Positions 2,331-22,914 of a stretch of DNA of 23,879 nucleotides are shown piece by piece (within the stretch, counting starts at the first letter, position 1; the number at the start of each line of letters is the position of its first letter). The DNA is from a virus. The notes beneath the pieces were generated by a model. The model had not been told where the DNA came from and made no database searches. It worked only from the letters and a program-made list of their open reading frames with translations. A program made the position numbers and the translations under genes. The stretch covers positions 1 to 23,879 of the IMG/VR virus record IMGVR_UViG_3300009506_000188, one strand, 5' to 3'.

Positions 2331-3835
2331 TAACGGTGCCAGTTGTTATTTCGCCCCAAATTGTCACCCAAATCAACTTTATTTGCATTTCCACTTGTGT
2401 ATGAAAGTTCAAGCGTTGCTGATGTTTTCGTCATATTAAGCACCAAACTTACTATGTTGGACGATGCATCCTGATCTGTCTTTGCTGGATCATTTGAGAT
2501 GCGTCCCCAAGGCTCCTTGATTGGCACACGGCTTGTTGTGTACGCATAGTTTGGAGTGGTTAGTGATGCAGCGGTTAACGTTTTTGCATTTGTGGCTAGA
2601 CCATCATTCAAGTGAATTTCCGTGGCATCTTCATTTATATTGCCACCACTCAAGAAATCCATGTCATTGCTTGACTCCAAATTCAGCGTCGTGCCCGCAT
2701 CAACACTAAATGCCGAAGTTGATTGCATATACAGAGTTGTTCCAGTTGCCAAGTTGAAAGCTGTGCCAACTGTAATGTTGAAATGTCCAACTGTTCCTAT
2801 GTCAATATCTGACCCAACATCTATGGACAAGTGTGAACCCATCTGTACATCAACATTTGAGCCTGCTCTCAATTCAAAGTTTGTGTCCGCATGGATTCGT
2901 GTTTCTGTTTGTGTTCTCAGGTGAAAGGATCCAGCTGATATTCTAAACTCACCTTCAGTTGTAAAATTGAATCCTTTCAACGCATGAAATGACATGCGGC
3001 GGTCAGAATATACATCCACATTACCAGCACGATCCATCTCAACCCAATTCTTTCCTTCTGGAGTGCTCACATAGATTCGTTCATTGGTGTCATCCATGAT
3101 AATCTGATTGCCAGATGTTGTACGGAAACGAATCTTTCCATTCTTCAAACTATCATCCATCAAGATGGTGTGCATACCAGGAGTTGTTATGCTGTACACC
3201 TGTGAATCAAAGTTCCCATCTGTTTCATCAAAAACAAGATCTCCACGAATGCGACTCTTTTGATATCCTTTTCGACTATCAGTGGAGCGGTCATCTGCCT
3301 GTGAGCTTACGACCTTATTAATAACAGTGTTGCCAATCGACGCTGCTTGATTTTCTGCTGCACGTGTTTGCCATTCAGGTGAGCTCGTCTGCTGCTGGAA
3401 AGCTTCCTTCATGTTTGTCGAAAGAGGCTCGATTGGACTTTCTGAAGAAGATAGTGGACCATTCACACCACCATCTAGGAATCGTCCCATTGGAAGGGTG
3501 TGAGCCATGTGGTCTGGATGGATGCTACCAACCCATACACGGTGATTAGCATCACCATCTATCAGCATGCAGACAACCAATGATCCAACTTTGGGTATAG
3601 CCCACATTCCATACGCAACTGGTCCGGTTGTCGTTGCTTCTTCTGGACCTCGCGTACCACGCGTCAGGATACCTCCAAATGGTGAAACGTACGATGCCCA
3701 AGGAATGTTCACAATCTTAGTATCGTTTGTGTCACCCCACTTTGGACAACTAACGCGTAAACGACCCTGCTGTTGAGGATCATTCGTATCAACAACGGTT
3801 CCTACGGTTAAAATTGGATAATGTTCATCCATCAT
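2330..3835 (-). CDS. 5: Baseplate central spike/hub protein gp5-like, no lysozyme domain
   Basis: This 501-residue protein forms the needle under the tail tube. The N-terminal part (about residues 1-125) looks like the OB-fold of gp5/VgrG proteins: GTVVDTNDPQQQGRLRV at about 12-28, then IPKVGSLVVCMLIDGDANH and VWVGS. A linker follows, then from about residue 195 to 400 there are short strand repeats with alternating polar and hydrophobic residues (ITTPGMHTILMDD, TSGNQIIMDD, ISAGSFHL, MGSHLSIDVGSDIDIG), typical of the triple beta-helix spike. T4 gp5 carries a lysozyme domain between these two parts; no such domain is visible here. The C-terminal 80 residues, including VPIKEPWGR, are of unknown role. 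The start is a double ATG one base after the stop of the upstream gene. Confidence 0.75.
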   Translation of the reverse strand: MMDEHYPILTVGTVVDTNDPQQQGRLRVSCPKWGDTNDTKIVNIPWASYVSPFGGILTRGTRGPEEATTTGPVAYGMWAIPKVGSLVVCMLIDGDANHRVWVGSIHPDHMAHTLPMGRFLDGGVNGPLSSSESPIEPLSTNMKEAFQQQTSSPEWQTRAAENQAASIGNTVINKVVSSQADDRSTDSRKGYQKSRIRGDLVFDETDGNFDSQVYSITTPGMHTILMDDSLKNGKIRFRTTSGNQIIMDDTNERIYVSTPEGKNWVEMDRAGNVDVYSDRRMSFHALKGFNFTTEGEFRISAGSFHLRTQTETRIHADTNFELRAGSNVDVQMGSHLSIDVGSDIDIGTVGHFNITVGTAFNLATGTTLYMQSTSAFSVDAGTTLNLESSNDMDFLSGGNINEDATEIHLNDGLATNAKTLTAASLTTPNYAYTTSRVPIKEPWGRISNDPAKTDQDASSNIVSLVLNMTKTSATLELSYTSGNANKVDLGDNLGRNNNWHR

Positions 3836-7767: not shown

Positions 7768-8517
7768 ATGCCCGCTCCTAAGAAACCTACAAAAAAGAGG
7801 GTCACTAAGAAAAAGACCCCCGTCAAAAAGAAGACTGCCAAGAAAAAAGTCGTCAAAAAGAAAGTAGCAAAAAAGAAAGTTGCTAAGAAAAAGGTGACTA
7901 AGAAGGCTGCGAAAAAGAAAGTTACCACCAAGAAAGTGGCGACTAAGAAACCTGCCGAAAAGGATTCTACACCACCTGTCGACGAGAAACCAGCAGCGCC
8001 TCCAAAGAAGAAGCGCAAAGCCAATTACCTGAATAACGCGGATTTGTTAGCCGAAACGATTCAGAGTCTCGAACAGGACAAGATGACGGAAAAACTAGCA
8101 CACATGCTTGTCACTCTCGTCGCTCGATATGGCAAAAAAGCAAACTTTGCAAACTACACATACAATGAGGATATGCAGGGTTATGCTATAATGGGGTTAG
8201 TGAAGACTTGGAAATCCTTCAATCCCGAGAAGAGCAAAAATCCATTTGCGTTTTACACTCAATGTGTTAAGAATTCATTTATCCAGTTCCTAAATCAGGA
8301 ACGGAAGCAGCGTAACATTCGCGATGAAATATTGGTAAATCAAGGGCTAACACCTTCCTTTACCTACACAAATGCGTACGAAGAACAGCAAAAGAACAGA
8401 GCATTTGCACACGATGAGCAGGATTTCGATGCGAATGAGAAGCAACGCAAAGAGCTTGAAAAAATGAGCAAAGATCTGGATGATAAAAACGAAGAGTCCG
8501 ATCTCTTAGAATTTTAA
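7768..8517 (+). CDS. 55: Late sigma factor gp55 with histone-H1-like N-terminal tail
   Basis: gp55 is the T4-family sigma subunit that directs host RNA polymerase to late promoters. The core, from about residue 86, has the family pattern: NYLNNADLLAETIQS, then KANFANYTYNEDMQGYAIMG (125-144), FNPEKSKNPFAFYTQ (151-165) and FIQFLNQERKQRN (171-183), corresponding to the sigma region 2-like part. The extreme C-terminus, ESDLLEF, resembles the hydrophobic clamp-binding end of T4 gp55. T4 gp55 is 185 residues; this protein has 249 because of an extension of about 85 residues made mainly of Lys, Ala, Val and Thr in KKxxxKK repeats, like histone H1 or bacterial H1-like proteins. The start is ATG at 7768 with AAAGGA five bases upstream. 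It is the first gene of the rightward early operon. Confidence 0.88.
   Translation: MPAPKKPTKKRVTKKKTPVKKKTAKKKVVKKKVAKKKVAKKKVTKKAAKKKVTTKKVATKKPAEKDSTPPVDEKPAAPPKKKRKANYLNNADLLAETIQSLEQDKMTEKLAHMLVTLVARYGKKANFANYTYNEDMQGYAIMGLVKTWKSFNPEKSKNPFAFYTQCVKNSFIQFLNQERKQRNIRDEILVNQGLTPSFTYTNAYEEQQKNRAFAHDEQDFDANEKQRKELEKMSKDLDDKNEESDLLEF
7795..7960 (+). repeat. Lysine-codon-rich degenerate repeats encoding KKK(V/T)(A/V/T) units
   Basis: Inside the start of gp55 the DNA repeats short units such as AAGAAAAAGGT and AAGAAAGTTGC that encode KKKVAKKKVAKKKVTKK-type sequence. The repeats are imperfect and in frame. Such arrays can grow or shrink by slippage, so the tail length may vary between related phages. 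Confidence 0.6.
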
Positions 8518-14707: not shown

Positions 14708-14896
14708 TTAGTAGTTTGGATACGGTCTCTTCGATTCAGTTTCAAGCCTTTCCTTGATGAACTTTCCAATGACCTGGCGTTCAACTGGCGTTCGCCACAT
14801 TAGGTCATCGTACTGTATTCCACCTCTCATAAAGTATGCCAAACTGACGCATTCTTCTAAGAGTATTTTGCTTGAATGACGAAGTTCTCCAAACAT
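14708..14896 (-). CDS. 62-aa ORF, probable -1 frameshift extension of gp26-like protein
   Basis: The sequence contains LAYFMRGGIQYDDLMWRTPVE (about 19-39), a pattern I associate with small phage proteins near tail genes, but I cannot name the family. The ATG at 14896-14894 lies in the 3' arm of a hairpin and has no Shine-Dalgarno sequence. Its frame is open upstream without a stop back to the poly-T run at the end of the gp26-like gene. A -1 slip at T TTT TTT would join residue 268 of that protein to 14 linker residues and then to this ORF, making a fusion of about 344 residues. It is therefore more likely to be made as an extension than as a free protein, comparable to the T part of lambda gpGT. 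Confidence 0.6.
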   Translation of the reverse strand: MFGELRHSSKILLEECVSLAYFMRGGIQYDDLMWRTPVERQVIGKFIKERLETESKRPYPNY

Positions 14897-14918
14897 CCGC
14901 TGAATTTCTTCAGCGGAT
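14895..14918 (-). promoter_or_regulatory. Perfect 10-bp hairpin with GAAA loop downstream of the slippery site
   Basis: On the minus strand ATCCGCTGAA pairs perfectly with TTCAGCGGAT around a GAAA tetraloop, a very stable loop type. It begins 19 bases after the slippery heptamer, longer than the usual 5-9 bases for a frameshift stimulator, and its 3' arm covers the ATG of the 62-aa ORF. It could stimulate the frameshift, block internal starts, or both. Confidence 0.6.
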
Positions 14919-14931
14919 CCTAACCTCAGCG

Positions 14932-15741
14932 TTATGAAAAAAAATCTATCGGGTTCAACGAAGGCGATAGAGTTATTTCTTCTTCACAATCCCTGCACTT
15001 AACCTTTGCTGATACATCAGCACCCCACTCACTGACGATTGGAATCTTGGCTGTGATCTTTCGAATGTGTCCAGCAGAAAGCTTTCTCAACCACTCATCA
15101 ATGAATGCTCGTTCGGTGTATCCATCCACGCTAACAATCAAATCCAACAGCGAACCAAGGATACCAGATGACAAATCTTCGTCAGACACAGCATCATTGT
15201 TGACAGCCTGATAGAACTTCAGAACACTGTCGTATCGTGGAGGTTGTAGCAAGACAACCTGACTATTGGGAAGAACTAAACGATATTTCTCAGTTATGTC
15301 CCTTTCTTCAATTTTGCGTGTTTGCCGTAGAAATGTATCCAAGCCTACCAAGTACGAGTGACTTTTGGCATTTTCACATTTGTGCGTGTACTGAACTTCA
15401 ATGCTGTCACCGTATGTCACTTTACGGAGACACACCATCAAGTAATCAACGTCCTTTGCAAGCAAGTCCAAAGGCTTCTTAATTTGGGGGATGCAGCGTC
15501 TGAACACATCAACGATCGCTGTACCGTTAAGTAGTTTGTCGGGAGATTTCATTACAAGTTCATCCAATGTAACCATTGGAAAAACAACAACTTCACCATC
15601 TACCACATCATCAGCCAATTCTCCATTTTTATAGAAAAGACCCCTTGATGGTAGGGCAAAGGTTTCACCAGGGATTCGAGCGCGTTCGAGTAAAGGGTTA
15701 CGAACGGGTTCTTGTGGTGAGGGTGTTTCAACTGTTGACAT
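14932..15741 (-). CDS. 26: gp26-like baseplate/tail-assembly protein (PF12322-type)
   Basis: This 269-residue protein resembles the T4 gp26 family, annotated as baseplate hub or tail-assembly protein. Supporting segments are: ALPSRGLFYKNGE (about 29-41), matching the LPSxGxxY start of the family, an EVVVFPMVTLDELVMKSPD region, the central MVCLRKVTYGDSIEVQYTHKC, and a C-terminal CRDCEEEITLSPSLNP strand, where a zinc-ribbon-like cysteine pair precedes a terminal phenylalanine pair. The start is ATG at 15741 with AGGAGA. It is divergent from the tape measure gene and carries a slippery heptamer right before its stop. This makes a tail-assembly chaperone role, like gpG with a gpGT extension, attractive. 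T4 gp26 is 208 residues. Confidence 0.7.
   Translation of the reverse strand: MSTVETPSPQEPVRNPLLERARIPGETFALPSRGLFYKNGELADDVVDGEVVVFPMVTLDELVMKSPDKLLNGTAIVDVFRRCIPQIKKPLDLLAKDVDYLMVCLRKVTYGDSIEVQYTHKCENAKSHSYLVGLDTFLRQTRKIEERDITEKYRLVLPNSQVVLLQPPRYDSVLKFYQAVNNDAVSDEDLSSGILGSLLDLIVSVDGYTERAFIDEWLRKLSAGHIRKITAKIPIVSEWGADVSAKVKCRDCEEEITLSPSLNPIDFFS
14938..14944 (-). other. Candidate -1 ribosomal slippery site T TTT TTT
   Basis: The minus strand carries eight T residues (14944-14937). In the gp26-like frame they read GAT TTT TTT TCA TAA, so the heptamer T TTT TTT has exactly the X XXY YYZ form, two codons before the stop. The -1 frame continues TTC ATA ACG CTG and stays open into the 62-aa ORF. 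Polymerase slippage on the T-run would be an alternative way to make the fusion. Confidence 0.6.
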
Positions 15742-15865: not shown

Positions 15866-17650
15866 GTGGCAGAATGGTGGGAAAATAAGAATACCGTCCG
15901 AGGTTTAGCAGCAACTATGGCTGCTGAGTTCAAGCGTGCAAACGTTGGATGCTGTGATGATCAGACAGCATCATCCAGCGGTCATCGTAGAAGCCAAGAA
16001 GAATTCAACCGTGAACAGGAACAAGCAACTGAACGCTTGGGCATATTTGGTAAAGTACTGCGTGGTGTGTCAAATGCGGGCAAAACGCTGCAAGATGTAT
16101 TCACTGTTGTTTTGGGTGATGTTGTTCGCCGAGGCGCAGAAGATTTTTCGGCTGCCATGGAGCAAGGTGTTGAAGCTAACAAAGCGTGGCGTACACAGAT
16201 GTATGCCATCAAGCTTGGTGACACTGCTTCCAATATAGCAAATCTTTCTGCTGAGACAAGACAGTCTGTATTGGCTATGGGTGGCTTTGAAAAGTGGGTT
16301 GATCGAATTAACAATGTGAACGAAGAGTATTTTGGCTACATCGGTAACACAGCTGACACGACTCGCTTTCTTGCCAAGCAGATGCAGCTACTTGGTGAGT
16401 ATGGTGTCAAACCAAGCCTAGATGCAATGAAAGATCAAAGTGTGATTGCTGGTGGCACTAACAGAACTCTCAAAGACACTACATCTCTATTGGTCAAGTT
16501 AGGTGTTCCTGTCAAGAGACAGCAGGAGATGCTGCGAACACTGTTGGAAGATGAAAACATCCAAAATAAACTCCGTGGTAAGAACACCACTGAAGAACGG
16601 CTATCTGTTATTCGAAACCTGATGGCTCGGCAAGCAGAGTACCAAGCTCTTGGTTTATCTACTGAACAAGCAATGAAAGCAAGCAAAGCTTTAGAACAGA
16701 TTGGTGGTAAGAAGCCAGTTGATCGTATCAAGATGGCGGCCAAAGCAACTGCAGCATTGAGTGCAATGGGTATTGAAGGTGCCGCACGTGTTGGTGATAT
16801 CATTCGTATGGGTCAGCGAGCCACTAAAGATGATCAAGAGTGGGCTCGTAAGCGTTTGGGAATGGCAGAAGATGTTTATGCTGAATCCAAGCAGCTTGGT
16901 ATGGGATATGAAATGACAATATCTGCGCTCTATGAGAAGGGCGGACTTGCAGATCTTCTTGGTGAAGGTGGTGTATTCTCCACAAAACTAAAACAGAATA
17001 TTCAGGTTGTTGACAAGGTTACAGACTCGTACAATGTTCTGGGTGATCAGGCAGACAAATTTTCCAAAACACTTGTTCATGGTATGATGCTCAGCCAAGA
17101 AGCCATCAACTTCTTAAACAGAACAGTCCCTGGATTGCTAACGCAGAAAGGTCCTTTGGGAGCTGGTGCACTTACTGCAATCGAAGGAGCTGTTAGAATG
17201 GCAGGTGCCCAAGGCATCATGACAGAAAAAGAAGGTAAAGAACTTATTGCTGCTGTCAAAGAAGGTGGAACTGAGTTTGCAAAGAGCCTTGGATTAGATA
17301 ACATGGCTGAAAAGATTGTGGATAATCCAATGGTGCAGGGCATTGGTAACATTAAGGATAGTGTTGTTGATTGGTACCATGATTGGAAGAAAACAATATT
17401 TGGTGATGAAAAGGAAGACAATCAGAAGAAGATTGAGGAACTCCAAAAGCAAAATGCTGACTCACTTGACAAAATTAGTAAACTCGTTGCACAGCAAAAT
17501 CAGCATTTCAGCAAGCTAACCCAGTACACTATTGATGCTGAGGCAAATAAGATCTCAAGTCGCAAGAAACAATTGGATGCTTTGGAAGGTATTAAGAGCC
17601 ACACCAAGCCAAAGGCTCAATTTGGAGGTCTTAGGGGCAATGCGGACTAA
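15866..17650 (+). CDS. 29: Tail tape measure protein, gp29-like
   Basis: This 594-residue protein most likely sets tail length, as T4 gp29 does (590 residues). It is predominantly helical, with many Ala, Gln, Lys and Glu heptad-like stretches (for example KVLRGVSNAGKTLQDVF near 64-80 and RIKMAAKATAALSAMGIEGA near 281-300), a Gly/Ala-rich hydrophobic stretch (GPLGAGALTAIEGAVRMAGA, about 430-449), and a final coiled-coil segment QKKIEELQKQNADSLDKISK. This composition and length are typical of tape measures, which show little sequence conservation. The start is GTG at 15866 with AGGAAAAA just upstream and a late promoter 33 bp before it. It is divergent from the gp26-like gene and followed by the portal gene, an arrangement different from T4, where gp29 follows gp28 in the hub operon. 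Confidence 0.65.
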   Translation: MAEWWENKNTVRGLAATMAAEFKRANVGCCDDQTASSSGHRRSQEEFNREQEQATERLGIFGKVLRGVSNAGKTLQDVFTVVLGDVVRRGAEDFSAAMEQGVEANKAWRTQMYAIKLGDTASNIANLSAETRQSVLAMGGFEKWVDRINNVNEEYFGYIGNTADTTRFLAKQMQLLGEYGVKPSLDAMKDQSVIAGGTNRTLKDTTSLLVKLGVPVKRQQEMLRTLLEDENIQNKLRGKNTTEERLSVIRNLMARQAEYQALGLSTEQAMKASKALEQIGGKKPVDRIKMAAKATAALSAMGIEGAARVGDIIRMGQRATKDDQEWARKRLGMAEDVYAESKQLGMGYEMTISALYEKGGLADLLGEGGVFSTKLKQNIQVVDKVTDSYNVLGDQADKFSKTLVHGMMLSQEAINFLNRTVPGLLTQKGPLGAGALTAIEGAVRMAGAQGIMTEKEGKELIAAVKEGGTEFAKSLGLDNMAEKIVDNPMVQGIGNIKDSVVDWYHDWKKTIFGDEKEDNQKKIEELQKQNADSLDKISKLVAQQNQHFSKLTQYTIDAEANKISSRKKQLDALEGIKSHTKPKAQFGGLRGNAD

Positions 17651-17708: not shown

Positions 17709-19388
17709 ATGACAGCACCAAAGTGGACCGGATTTTATAAGTTAATTGAGCCAAAGCCAAATGTCACCAAAGTAACGGACAATCAGTCTATTGGTGATCA
17801 GGGTGCTTATGGTAACTTCAGTTGGTACCAGCGTTTAGTACAGGGCTCTGCATCTCGTCTTACACGTTACCGCGAATACGACCTCATGGATAATGACGTT
17901 GAGGTTGCTCGCGCGCTTGATACGATCGCGGAGGAAATGACTGGCAACGAACCCAAAACAGACGAATGTCTGATCGTTCAGGTTGATGCTGAAAAGGAAG
18001 AAGCGGTCTCAAATAACACTGTTGTCACCTTAAAGGCCGCTCTCAAATATTGGTCACAAATTCACGATTGGGAAAATCGACTCTTCAAAGTTTCTCGTAT
18101 TGTTGTCAAGTATGGTGATTGTTTCTTCCGAAAAGTTAAACAAGAGCCAACCATCAAATGGCAGTACATACATCCAAAAAACATTGTTGGTGCACTTGTT
18201 GATGAAAAGGATGTTACAAATGTCCTTGGGTGGCAGGTTAAGACTGACTCAAAGAAAGTGAAGGCAAGCTACGGTGTTCCGGTAACAAATGCATCTAGTG
18301 ACATTGAAACGGAGCTCGTGCCATCGGATGAAATTGTTCGTTTCACACTCAGTGATGACATGTCAGATGCAGCACCATTTGGTGACTCTGTTCTCGGACC
18401 AGTTTACCGTGCACACAAGCAGAAAGAACTGCTTGAAGATGCTATTCTCATCTATCGTATTCAGCGTGCACCAGAGCGTCGTGTTTTCTACATTGACGTT
18501 GGTAAAATGCCTCCACAGCGTGTCAAGACATATCTGGAACAGATCAAGAATGAAATTAAGCAGAAGAAGGTTCCAAATATCAATGGTGGTAACAGCAACG
18601 TAGATTCCGTTTACAATCCACAGTCAATGAGTGAAGACTTCTTCTTTGCTCAGCGTGCGGATGGACGTGGCTCTAAGGTTGATACCCTGCCAGGTGGACA
18701 AGGTCTTGGTGAATTGGCTGATTTGGAATATTTCCAGAAGAAAGTGTGGCGTGGTTTGCGCATCCCAACATCCTACATGACAGAAGGTGCTGAAGGTGCT
18801 ATCTTTAATGATGGCAAGGTTGGCGTTGCATATATTCAGGAACTGCGTTTTGCACTATACATTCAGCGCTTGCAGGGATATGTTGAAAAGATCATGGATG
18901 AAGAGTTCAAGAAATATCTTCGTCGTTCAAATATTATAATTGATGAATCCATCTATCGTATTCGTTTACCAGAGCCTACAAACTTTGGTAAGTATCGTCA
19001 GCAGGAAGTTGATGCTGCTCTACTTGGAACATATGGTTCTGCAGATGCAATCCCATATCTATCCAAGCGTTACATCCTATCTCGCTACTTGCAGTTGGAA
19101 GATGAAGAGATCATCACAAATGAGCGTATGCTTCGTGAAGAGAAGGGCATGGATCCTGATGTTGCCAAGCCTGGTGATCTCCAGCTTCTGTATGGTGCTG
19201 GTGAGGAAGGTCTTGCTGGAGGCATGGGTGGCGTTGGTGGAATGTCAGCATTTGGTGGTCCAGCCCCAGTAGGTGCACCTGGTGAGGAAGGTCTTGGTGC
19301 GGAGGCTGGTGCCACACCTGAAGCTGGTGCAGCTGGGGGAGCAGCACCTGAAGCTGGTGTGGCAGGTCCTGCAGGAGCAGGTGGCTAA
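17709..19388 (+). CDS. 20: Portal vertex protein gp20
   Basis: gp20 forms the dodecameric portal through which DNA enters and leaves the head and on which the prohead is nucleated. The 559-residue protein (T4: 524) has the usual T4-type gp20 segments: NFSWYQRLVQGSASRLTRYR near the N-terminus, DNDVEVARALDTIAEEMTGN, IYRIQRAPERRVFYIDVGKM (about 255-274), DFFFAQRADGRGSKVDTLPG (about 311-330) and LRIPTSYM. These are regions commonly used as gp20 markers in aquatic phage surveys. The last 60 residues are a Gly/Ala/Glu/Pro low-complexity tail, probably flexible. The start is ATG with AGGAAA and a TATAAATA late promoter. It opens the head gene cluster. Confidence 0.95.
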   Translation: MTAPKWTGFYKLIEPKPNVTKVTDNQSIGDQGAYGNFSWYQRLVQGSASRLTRYREYDLMDNDVEVARALDTIAEEMTGNEPKTDECLIVQVDAEKEEAVSNNTVVTLKAALKYWSQIHDWENRLFKVSRIVVKYGDCFFRKVKQEPTIKWQYIHPKNIVGALVDEKDVTNVLGWQVKTDSKKVKASYGVPVTNASSDIETELVPSDEIVRFTLSDDMSDAAPFGDSVLGPVYRAHKQKELLEDAILIYRIQRAPERRVFYIDVGKMPPQRVKTYLEQIKNEIKQKKVPNINGGNSNVDSVYNPQSMSEDFFFAQRADGRGSKVDTLPGGQGLGELADLEYFQKKVWRGLRIPTSYMTEGAEGAIFNDGKVGVAYIQELRFALYIQRLQGYVEKIMDEEFKKYLRRSNIIIDESIYRIRLPEPTNFGKYRQQEVDAALLGTYGSADAIPYLSKRYILSRYLQLEDEEIITNERMLREEKGMDPDVAKPGDLQLLYGAGEEGLAGGMGGVGGMSAFGGPAPVGAPGEEGLGAEAGATPEAGAAGGAAPEAGVAGPAGAGG

Positions 19389-20505: not shown

Positions 20506-20661
20506 ATGGCTGACAGAGAAAAGCTAAATGCAATGCTTGATGCATTGATCAACAACAACCCTGAAGAGGCTCAGATCGCATTTCACGATTATTTGGGTGA
20601 TAGAATGCGTGAAGAGATGCACGGTGTTTCTGAAGAAGCACCAGATTCTGACGACGAGTAA
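20506..20661 (+). CDS. Small prohead-core-like protein, 51 aa (gp67-like position)
   Basis: This gene is short but convincing: ATG at 20506, AGAGGAG just upstream and a late promoter before it. The 51-residue product is acidic, starting MADREKLNAMLDALINNN and ending in EEAPDSDDE. Its N-terminal half shares the pattern L-x-AML-x-ALI...A...H-x-YL with the start of the next protein. In T4 the genes between portal gp20 and protease gp21 are the prohead core proteins gp67 and gp68, which are acidic and cut during maturation; position and charge suggest this is an equivalent. The next gene's AAAGGA overlaps the stop codon, so the two are closely coupled. Confidence 0.65.
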   Translation: MADREKLNAMLDALINNNPEEAQIAFHDYLGDRMREEMHGVSEEAPDSDDE

Positions 20662-20673
20662 AAGGATACTACA

Positions 20674-21735
20674 ATGAAGAAACATCTACGCGCCATGCTT
20701 GAAGCTTTGATTTCTGACGATACAGATGCAGCTTCCAAGCACCTTCATGCCTACCTTGCTGCTACCTCTCGTAAACTAGTCCTTGGTGAAGAAAAGGAAG
20801 AGATGGAAGACGAGAAGGAAGAAAAAGAAGAGAAGGAAGAGAAGAAGGAAAAGAAAGGTAAGAAGGAAAAGTCCGAAAAGGAAGAAGATGAGGACGAGGA
20901 TGAAGACGAAGATGAGGACGAGGATGAAGACGATGAGAAAGAAGAAGTCGACGAAGGTATCCTTGACCAGATCGACGAGGGTCTTCTAAACGAAATTTTT
21001 GAGATTGTCCTTGAGAAGAAGCCATCCGCTGGTATGACAAAGAAAGAGAAATCTGCTCTTGTCAAGAAAGCCAAAGCTGGTAAAGATATTGGTGAGAAGG
21101 GCAAGAAGTTCAAGGAAGTCGAAAAGAAAGCTGCAAAGCGTTATGGCTCTGAAGAAGCTGGCAAGAAAGTTGCAGCTGCTGCTATGTGGCGAAATGCTGC
21201 TGAGGCTATGGAGTTTGATAACAGCTGGGAATACAATTGTGATGGTGAAGTCTTTAAGAAGACTGTTCACAAGGATAATTCCCGTGGCTACAACAATCCC
21301 AAGGGTACAAAGCTAAGTGCTGATGCCAAGTCTGGTGCAAGTGAAAAGAAAGCTGATGCATACAAGACAAAGCCACACAAGAGCAACTCGATGGATGCTA
21401 AAGCTGAAGACAAGGGTGCAAAAGGTCTAAAGAAGGTTTCCAGCGATACAAAGAGCCCTCATGGTGATGGTATGAAGGAAGATCGTCGTACCGACAAAGC
21501 ACGCAACGTTCATGGTTCCCGTGATGGTAAAGAGCTAGCTGAAAAGTGGGCACATCCAGGCAAGATGGATACCAAGGAAAAGGGCAAGTACAAAGGTAAG
21601 ACTGAGGCAGAGCTGAAGTCAATGCTGAATGCACTCAAGAAGTCTGGTCCACATAAGAAGGGTTCCGCAGACTACGAGAAGCAGAATGAACTAGAATTTG
21701 CTCTTCGTGCAAAGCACAACTTTGGTAAAGTCTAA
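20674..21735 (+). CDS. Prohead-core-like polyampholyte protein, 353 aa (gp67/gp68 position)
   Basis: The protein lies between the portal and protease genes, at the place of T4 gp67/gp68. Regions in order: an N-terminal helix (MKKHLRAMLEALISDD) shared with the 51-aa protein; a Glu/Lys tract and then an Asp/Glu tract (about 45-92) encoded partly by a 24-bp tandem repeat; a helical segment with DEGILDQIDEGLLNEIFEIV; a Lys-rich domain containing GMTKKEKSALVKKAKAGKDI (about 115-134) and AAAAMWRN; a Lys/Ser/Gly-rich linker; and a C-terminal KGKTEAELKSMLNALKKSGP segment followed by HKKGS. The last two modules resemble ones I have seen in other phage proteins of unknown role. The acidic tract fits an internal core peptide. 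The start is ATG at 20674 with AAAGGA. Confidence 0.6.
   Translation: MKKHLRAMLEALISDDTDAASKHLHAYLAATSRKLVLGEEKEEMEDEKEEKEEKEEKKEKKGKKEKSEKEEDEDEDEDEDEDEDEDDEKEEVDEGILDQIDEGLLNEIFEIVLEKKPSAGMTKKEKSALVKKAKAGKDIGEKGKKFKEVEKKAAKRYGSEEAGKKVAAAAMWRNAAEAMEFDNSWEYNCDGEVFKKTVHKDNSRGYNNPKGTKLSADAKSGASEKKADAYKTKPHKSNSMDAKAEDKGAKGLKKVSSDTKSPHGDGMKEDRRTDKARNVHGSRDGKELAEKWAHPGKMDTKEKGKYKGKTEAELKSMLNALKKSGPHKKGSADYEKQNELEFALRAKHNFGKV
20887..20934 (+). repeat. Two 24-bp tandem repeats encoding Asp/Glu alternation
   Basis: Units 20887-20910 and 20911-20934 match at 23 of 24 bases (GATGAGGACGAGGATGAAGA is the shared start). They encode alternating Asp and Glu within the core-like protein. The near-identity suggests recent duplication, and the copy number may vary between isolates. 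Confidence 0.85.
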
Positions 21736-22459: not shown

Positions 22460-22675
22460 ATGGCACTACTAACTAATGGACGTCCAGCACCGCTGGCTCA
22501 GTACACTCTAGCAACACTACCTACTGCACTTTCCCATGTTGGTAGTCTAATTTTCGTCACGGACGCTAATTCTGGTTTGGGTGCGGTTGCCGTTTCGGTT
22601 TATGTTGCTGGTGGTTCTCCACTCACAGAAGCTGCTCAGTGGGTAGACGTTGTCGACTACACAGTTGTAGCTTAA
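22460..22675 (+). CDS. Small head-region protein, 71 aa, first of a tandem pair
   Basis: I do not recognise a named family. The start is ATG at 22460 with AAGGGAAGGAAA just before it, a strong ribosome binding site. The protein begins MALLTNGRPAPLAQYTLATL, continues HVGSLIFVTDANSGLGAVAVS and ends QWVDVVDYTVVA. The GSLIFVTDANSG...W.DV.. pattern resembles short beta domains seen at the ends of phage fibre and head proteins. It has a close paralogue directly downstream. Placed between protease and scaffold, behind a late promoter and before a terminator, it is probably a virion protein made in quantity, for example a head decoration protein. Confidence 0.75.
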   Translation: MALLTNGRPAPLAQYTLATLPTALSHVGSLIFVTDANSGLGAVAVSVYVAGGSPLTEAAQWVDVVDYTVVA

Positions 22676-22701
22676 TACTAAGTTTTAAAAGGAATACGCA
22701 A

Positions 22702-22914
22702 ATGGCTCTATTAAACAATGGACGTCCAGCTGGACTGGTCTCTTACACTCTAGCAACCTTACCTGTAGCAGCTGATCATGTTGGTAGCTTGGTTTTTGTA
22801 TCTGACGCAAACAGTGGTGTGGGTGCGGTTGCAGTCTCTCGCCAGGCTGGTGGTTCGCCTGCTGGTGAATCTGCCGATTGGTACGACATTGCCACATATG
22901 CAGTGGTTGCGTAA
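22702..22914 (+). CDS. Small head-region protein, 70 aa, second of a tandem pair
   Basis: This is a paralogue of the preceding protein, identical at about 49 of 70 aligned positions by eye, with one residue deleted in the middle. I chose ATG at 22702 because AAAGGA (22688-22693) sits at the right distance and the protein then aligns with its neighbour from the first residue (MALL.NGRPA); a longer frame reaching 22639 would run into the upstream gene. The DNA also shares exact blocks (AATGGACGTCCAGC and TACACTCTAGCAAC), which points to gene duplication. Divergence is mostly in surface-type residues, so the two may form a mixed assembly. A terminator follows. Confidence 0.75.
   Translation: MALLNNGRPAGLVSYTLATLPVAADHVGSLVFVSDANSGVGAVAVSRQAGGSPAGESADWYDIATYAVVA

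Follow-up and report, generated by a model that had tools for sequence, protein, structure and literature searches.

A probable programmed -1 frameshift in the gp26-like tail assembly chaperone gene of T4-like phages

The window, that is the whole stretch of 23,879 nucleotides (23.9 kb) analysed here, comes from the record of an uncultured virus and is T4-like, as judged from its portal, gp25, gp5-type and gp53-type genes; the portal gene (gp20, 17709..19388, plus strand) matches Portal_T4 with 4.6e-96. On the minus strand, positions 14932..15741 encode a 269-aa protein, which an earlier note made from the sequence alone had called gp26-like. We confirmed this identity, since the profile PF12322 (T4_baseplate, the family of T4 gp26 and gp51) recognizes the protein with 37.4 bits for a curated cut-off of 24.5 (E 2.9e-9); phrog_150, described as 'baseplate hub', is a second profile match. 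We propose that this protein is the short form of a tail assembly chaperone. The gene ends with GAT TTT TTT TCA TAA, which contains eight T in total. The in-frame heptamer T TTT TTT, read as GAT TTT TTT, is located at 14938..14944 (minus strand), where the earlier note had seen it, and the zero-frame stop TAA (14932..14934, minus strand) follows one codon later.

Starting from the heptamer, the -1 frame continues without interruption over 76 codons and ends in a stop (14708..14938, minus strand), namely 14 linker codons followed by an ORF of 62 codons, and the stop lies at 14710-14708. Reading through this frame gives a fusion of 344 aa, as had been claimed, and the extension would be the C-terminal domain of a long form of the protein. 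The 62-aa ORF was listed mechanically (14708..14896, minus strand) and, based on the analysis of start signals, it is most likely not a separate gene: upstream of its ATG we found no Shine-Dalgarno match of at least four bases, in agreement with the earlier note. A search of PHROGs and Pfam with this ORF gave no match.

A hairpin with a 10-bp stem and a GAAA loop, ATCCGCTGAA-GAAA-TTCAGCGGAT, occupies positions 14918-14895 of the minus strand, 19 nt past the heptamer, and this spacer is indeed longer than usual, as was remarked. The ATG of the 62-aa ORF (14896-14894) had been placed inside the hairpin; this holds for the A and the T, while the G is just beyond. The 91-nt region containing the hairpin has a folding z of -2.6, and the hairpin may stimulate frameshifting from the 3' side, but neither its position nor its sequence is conserved in relatives.

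The neighbouring gene (15866..17650, plus strand) is divergent and encodes a protein of 594 aa, whose homologues of 585-1272 aa have a common core. It is plausible that this is the tape measure protein. Weak tape-measure profile matches were obtained for the neighbour in the Erwinia phage only, and the comparison of the 594-aa protein with T4 gp29 gave no significant match. The annotated tape measure protein of Atu_ph07 was considered as a guide and was uninformative, with 205 aa only. Elsewhere on the plus strand of the window, we observed a late sigma factor-like protein (7768-8517; Sigma70_r2, 8e-5), whose N-terminal tail is rich in lysine and akin to the histone H1-like HC2; two adjoining ORFs with similar N-termini (20506-20661 and 20674-21735), the second of which carries a long Lys/Glu/Asp-rich tract and stands directly ahead of the prohead protease gene; and two small ORFs that are tandem near-duplicates (22460-22675 and 22639-22914; MALLTNGRPAP... 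and MALLNNGRPAG...).

We then compared the locus with its relatives, which included 16 viral contigs, 10 named giant phages, 80 cyanophage-type and 4 Aeromonas-phage contigs, and others; DNA similarity searches with the region gave no match in phage records or in E. coli genomes. An in-frame T TTT TTY is present near the zero-frame stop, usually one codon before it, in 109 of the 111 loci scanned, a count that is not circular because nearly all of these loci were collected through the gp26 protein and not through the heptamer. S-PM2, P-SSM2, phiM19, OLIVR5, BUCT608 and Ah1 fit this pattern. The extension that follows the heptamer in the -1 frame has 58-80 aa across the scanned loci, one of them being cut by the end of its contig.

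The open -1 frame at these loci is not due to chance, because it extends over 58-80 codons in 52 of 52 non-redundant loci, whereas the +1 frame reaches 58 codons in 0 of 52, and because the wobble positions that make up the heptamer are fixed. Indeed, all 52 loci have T as the last base of the codon before Phe-Phe, for 29.7 expected from the codon use of each gene, and 51 have TTT as their first Phe codon, for 32.8 expected, the 52 loci being akin to each other and thus not independent trials. The residue encoded before Phe-Phe is variable (S, D, A, H, T, N, Y or F). In addition, most substitutions in the extension affect third positions of the -1 frame, a bias that is very clear in cyanophages and modest in the clade of the window.

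The two exceptions among the 111 loci are L016, with TCT TTC TTC, and Cygsa01; PhaxI and Vibrio phage 1.255 also have a gp26 gene with no perfect heptamer (positions 3309 of locus L042 for Cygsa01, 3714 of L134 for Vibrio phage 1.255 and 3807 of L131 for PhaxI). As Cygsa01, L016 and the two Ackermannviridae were read without a perfect heptamer, the site is not used by every lineage. In Cygsa01 and in Vibrio phage 1.255, where the heptamer is absent, the stop and a start codon overlap as TAATG, which suggests another route to the long form or a separate form.

It could be assumed that the 62-aa ORF is an independent small gene, with translation beginning at a start of its own or by re-initiation once the gp26 stop has been reached. 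The ORF does possess an ATG, such ORFs are listed on their own by annotators, and the TAATG overlap suggests that coupling may operate in the branch of Cygsa01 and Vibrio phage 1.255. However, the conserved -1 frame begins at the heptamer and not at the ATG, and a separate gene leaves the conserved heptamer unexplained. Moreover, the place of the first start varies among loci, in three of them no start occurs within 25 codons of the extension, and a start codon within 25 codons combined with a Shine-Dalgarno match of at least four bases was detected in only 4 of 26 giant-phage-type and 2 of 80 cyanophage-type loci. We consequently regard a separate gene as very improbable. The earlier note had held that its reading would be wrong if relatives had stops in the linker or if their small ORF stood by itself after a good ribosome binding site; in more than 100 relatives we observed no linker stops and almost no start with a Shine-Dalgarno sequence and, with a heptamer in 109 of 111 loci, the reading was not refuted.

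The RNA around the site also carries signals. The 60 nt past the heptamer are more structured than stretches lying upstream in the same loci, both in the cyanophage type (mean folding z -1.90, p = 4e-7) and in the giant-phage type (mean folding z -1.42, p = 0.0015). In the cyanophage type, a hairpin begins 6 nt past the heptamer, in which 76% of cells are paired, compared with 25-42% when it is slid, part of this excess arising by construction as the hairpin was picked by eye from the consensus; RNAalifold on the cyanophage set returned no consensus structure. Upstream of the heptamer, these phages have GAGGG or GAAGGG. This upstream motif and the hairpin at 6 nt are arranged similarly to the dnaX signal, whereas the window has only its hairpin at 19 nt, and a similar upstream motif, when sought there, was absent.

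Slippage could instead take place during transcription, on the T-run, and give the extension without the ribosome; the window has eight T and some relatives have nine. Nevertheless, most relatives have a run of only six T, in T TTT TTC, whose codon phase is exactly that of a tandem -1 slip, and RNA structure follows the site, so that we give this explanation marginally less credit still than the separate gene. Finally, a homopolymer error of sequencing or assembly in what is really one open frame, conceivable since T-runs are error-prone and the record is that of an uncultured virus, is already contradicted by cultured phages, whose finished genomes show the same -1 relation with a six-T run and differing stop codons and distances, and deserves next to no credence.

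Programmed -1 ribosomal frameshifting is thus the reading that we favour: judging from the sequences compared, it very likely yields both forms of a tail assembly chaperone of the T4 family (PF12322). Most ribosomes would end at the TAA and produce the 269-aa short form. A minority would slip back by one base at the heptamer T TTT TTT, where both Phe tRNAs would pair anew in the -1 frame, and would read 76 further codons to give the 344-aa long form with its C-terminal domain. By analogy with lambda G/G-T, abundant short copies may coat the tape measure protein and rare long copies may recruit tail-tube subunits.

As in lambda gpG/gpGT and other frameshifted chaperones (Xu 2004; PMC5009743), the short ORF has, close to its end, a slippery site that leads into an open -1 frame encoding a C-terminal extension, and the arrangement is conserved among the scanned loci and the named phages. 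The proposal that the gp26-like protein and its fusion are the equivalent of gpG/gpGT in a T4-like phage is supported by these relatives. In both cases a large gene adjoins, the tape measure gene in lambda and the candidate one in the window, which however is divergent; the heptamer here is T TTT TTY, and the two systems are likened by arrangement and not by sequence kinship. S-PM2, P-SSM2, phiM19, OLIVR5 and Aeh1 resemble the window, with the heptamer and a stop one to a few codons on, and their -1 extension was annotated as a small gp51 or missed. For the chaperone of Pseudomonas phage Adele (PMC12846349), a conserved poly-T -1 frameshift was likewise deduced from an open -1 frame in relatives, but its motif is GTTTTT and it belongs to another phage family.

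For T4, gp26 was described as the short tail assembly chaperone and gp51 as the long one (Vladimirov, Gautam and Davidson 2022, as cited in PMC10885494 and PMC12846349). Citing the same work, the PRFect paper (PMC10885494) mentions that some T4-like phages carry a short chaperone gene together with a long, fused one, and the Adele paper (PMC12846349) mentions poly-T slippery sequences in T4-like chaperone genes. Both T4 proteins belong to PF12322 (8.8e-64 for gp26 and 3.9e-52 for gp51), like the protein of the window, and gp51 alone has a C-terminal extension. A link by gene position was rejected because T4 has gp51 on the opposite strand, which left sequence as the basis for it. By hhalign, the C-terminus of gp51 matches the cyanophage extension (P = 2.5e-8), the Aeromonas-type extension (P = 6e-5) and, weakly, that of the window's clade (P = 0.003); the extensions of the two giant-phage groups match each other with 98.7% probability. 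A Phe-Phe column is common to all in the alignment: it is there that T4 gp26 stops, with EFFELL, and that gp51 goes on in frame, with VFKLL. T4 thus has the short and long forms in two genes, whereas the window has one gene with a -1 slip site. Solved structures related by sequence were not found, and a fold search of the PDB with a model of T4-type gp51 (pLDDT 84.5) gave no clear match.

In an unrooted tree of the short domain, T4-type gp26 and gp51 form one clade (97/92), beside phiAS5 and Aeh1 and within the frameshifting lineages. As the tree is unrooted, a duplication in the stem of T4 is the simplest reading and not a proof. We consider it likely that the ancestral state of the T4-like superfamily, several giant-phage lineages included, was one frameshifted chaperone gene, and that the T4 pair arose from one duplication which fixed the short and long forms, the slip site being lost. 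Enterobacter phage EC-F2 (L129, 5001-6294) has gp51-type and gp26-type genes in tandem on the same strand, a layout that would be expected after a duplication.

Sullivan et al. (2010; PMC3037559) reported that gp51 of cyanophages is short by about 200 N-terminal residues and that Aeh1 has no gp51. Both observations fit a -1 extension and, if the proposal is true, the ancestral frameshift accounts for the truncated appearance of the former and the apparent absence of the latter. Frameshifting of tail chaperones is itself already known; its occurrence in several giant-phage lineages, for which we found no report in open-access full texts, is possibly new, and so possibly is the tree that places the T4 two-gene arrangement within frameshifting lineages. 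T4 has been quoted as the exception to the conserved tail frameshift (Atkins 2016; PMC5009743), and our comparison suggests that it is rather a derived case within a frameshifting family. The small 'gp51' and hypothetical ORFs of many phage genomes gain a meaning, and the conserved dnaX-like signal of cyanophages is now open to testing.
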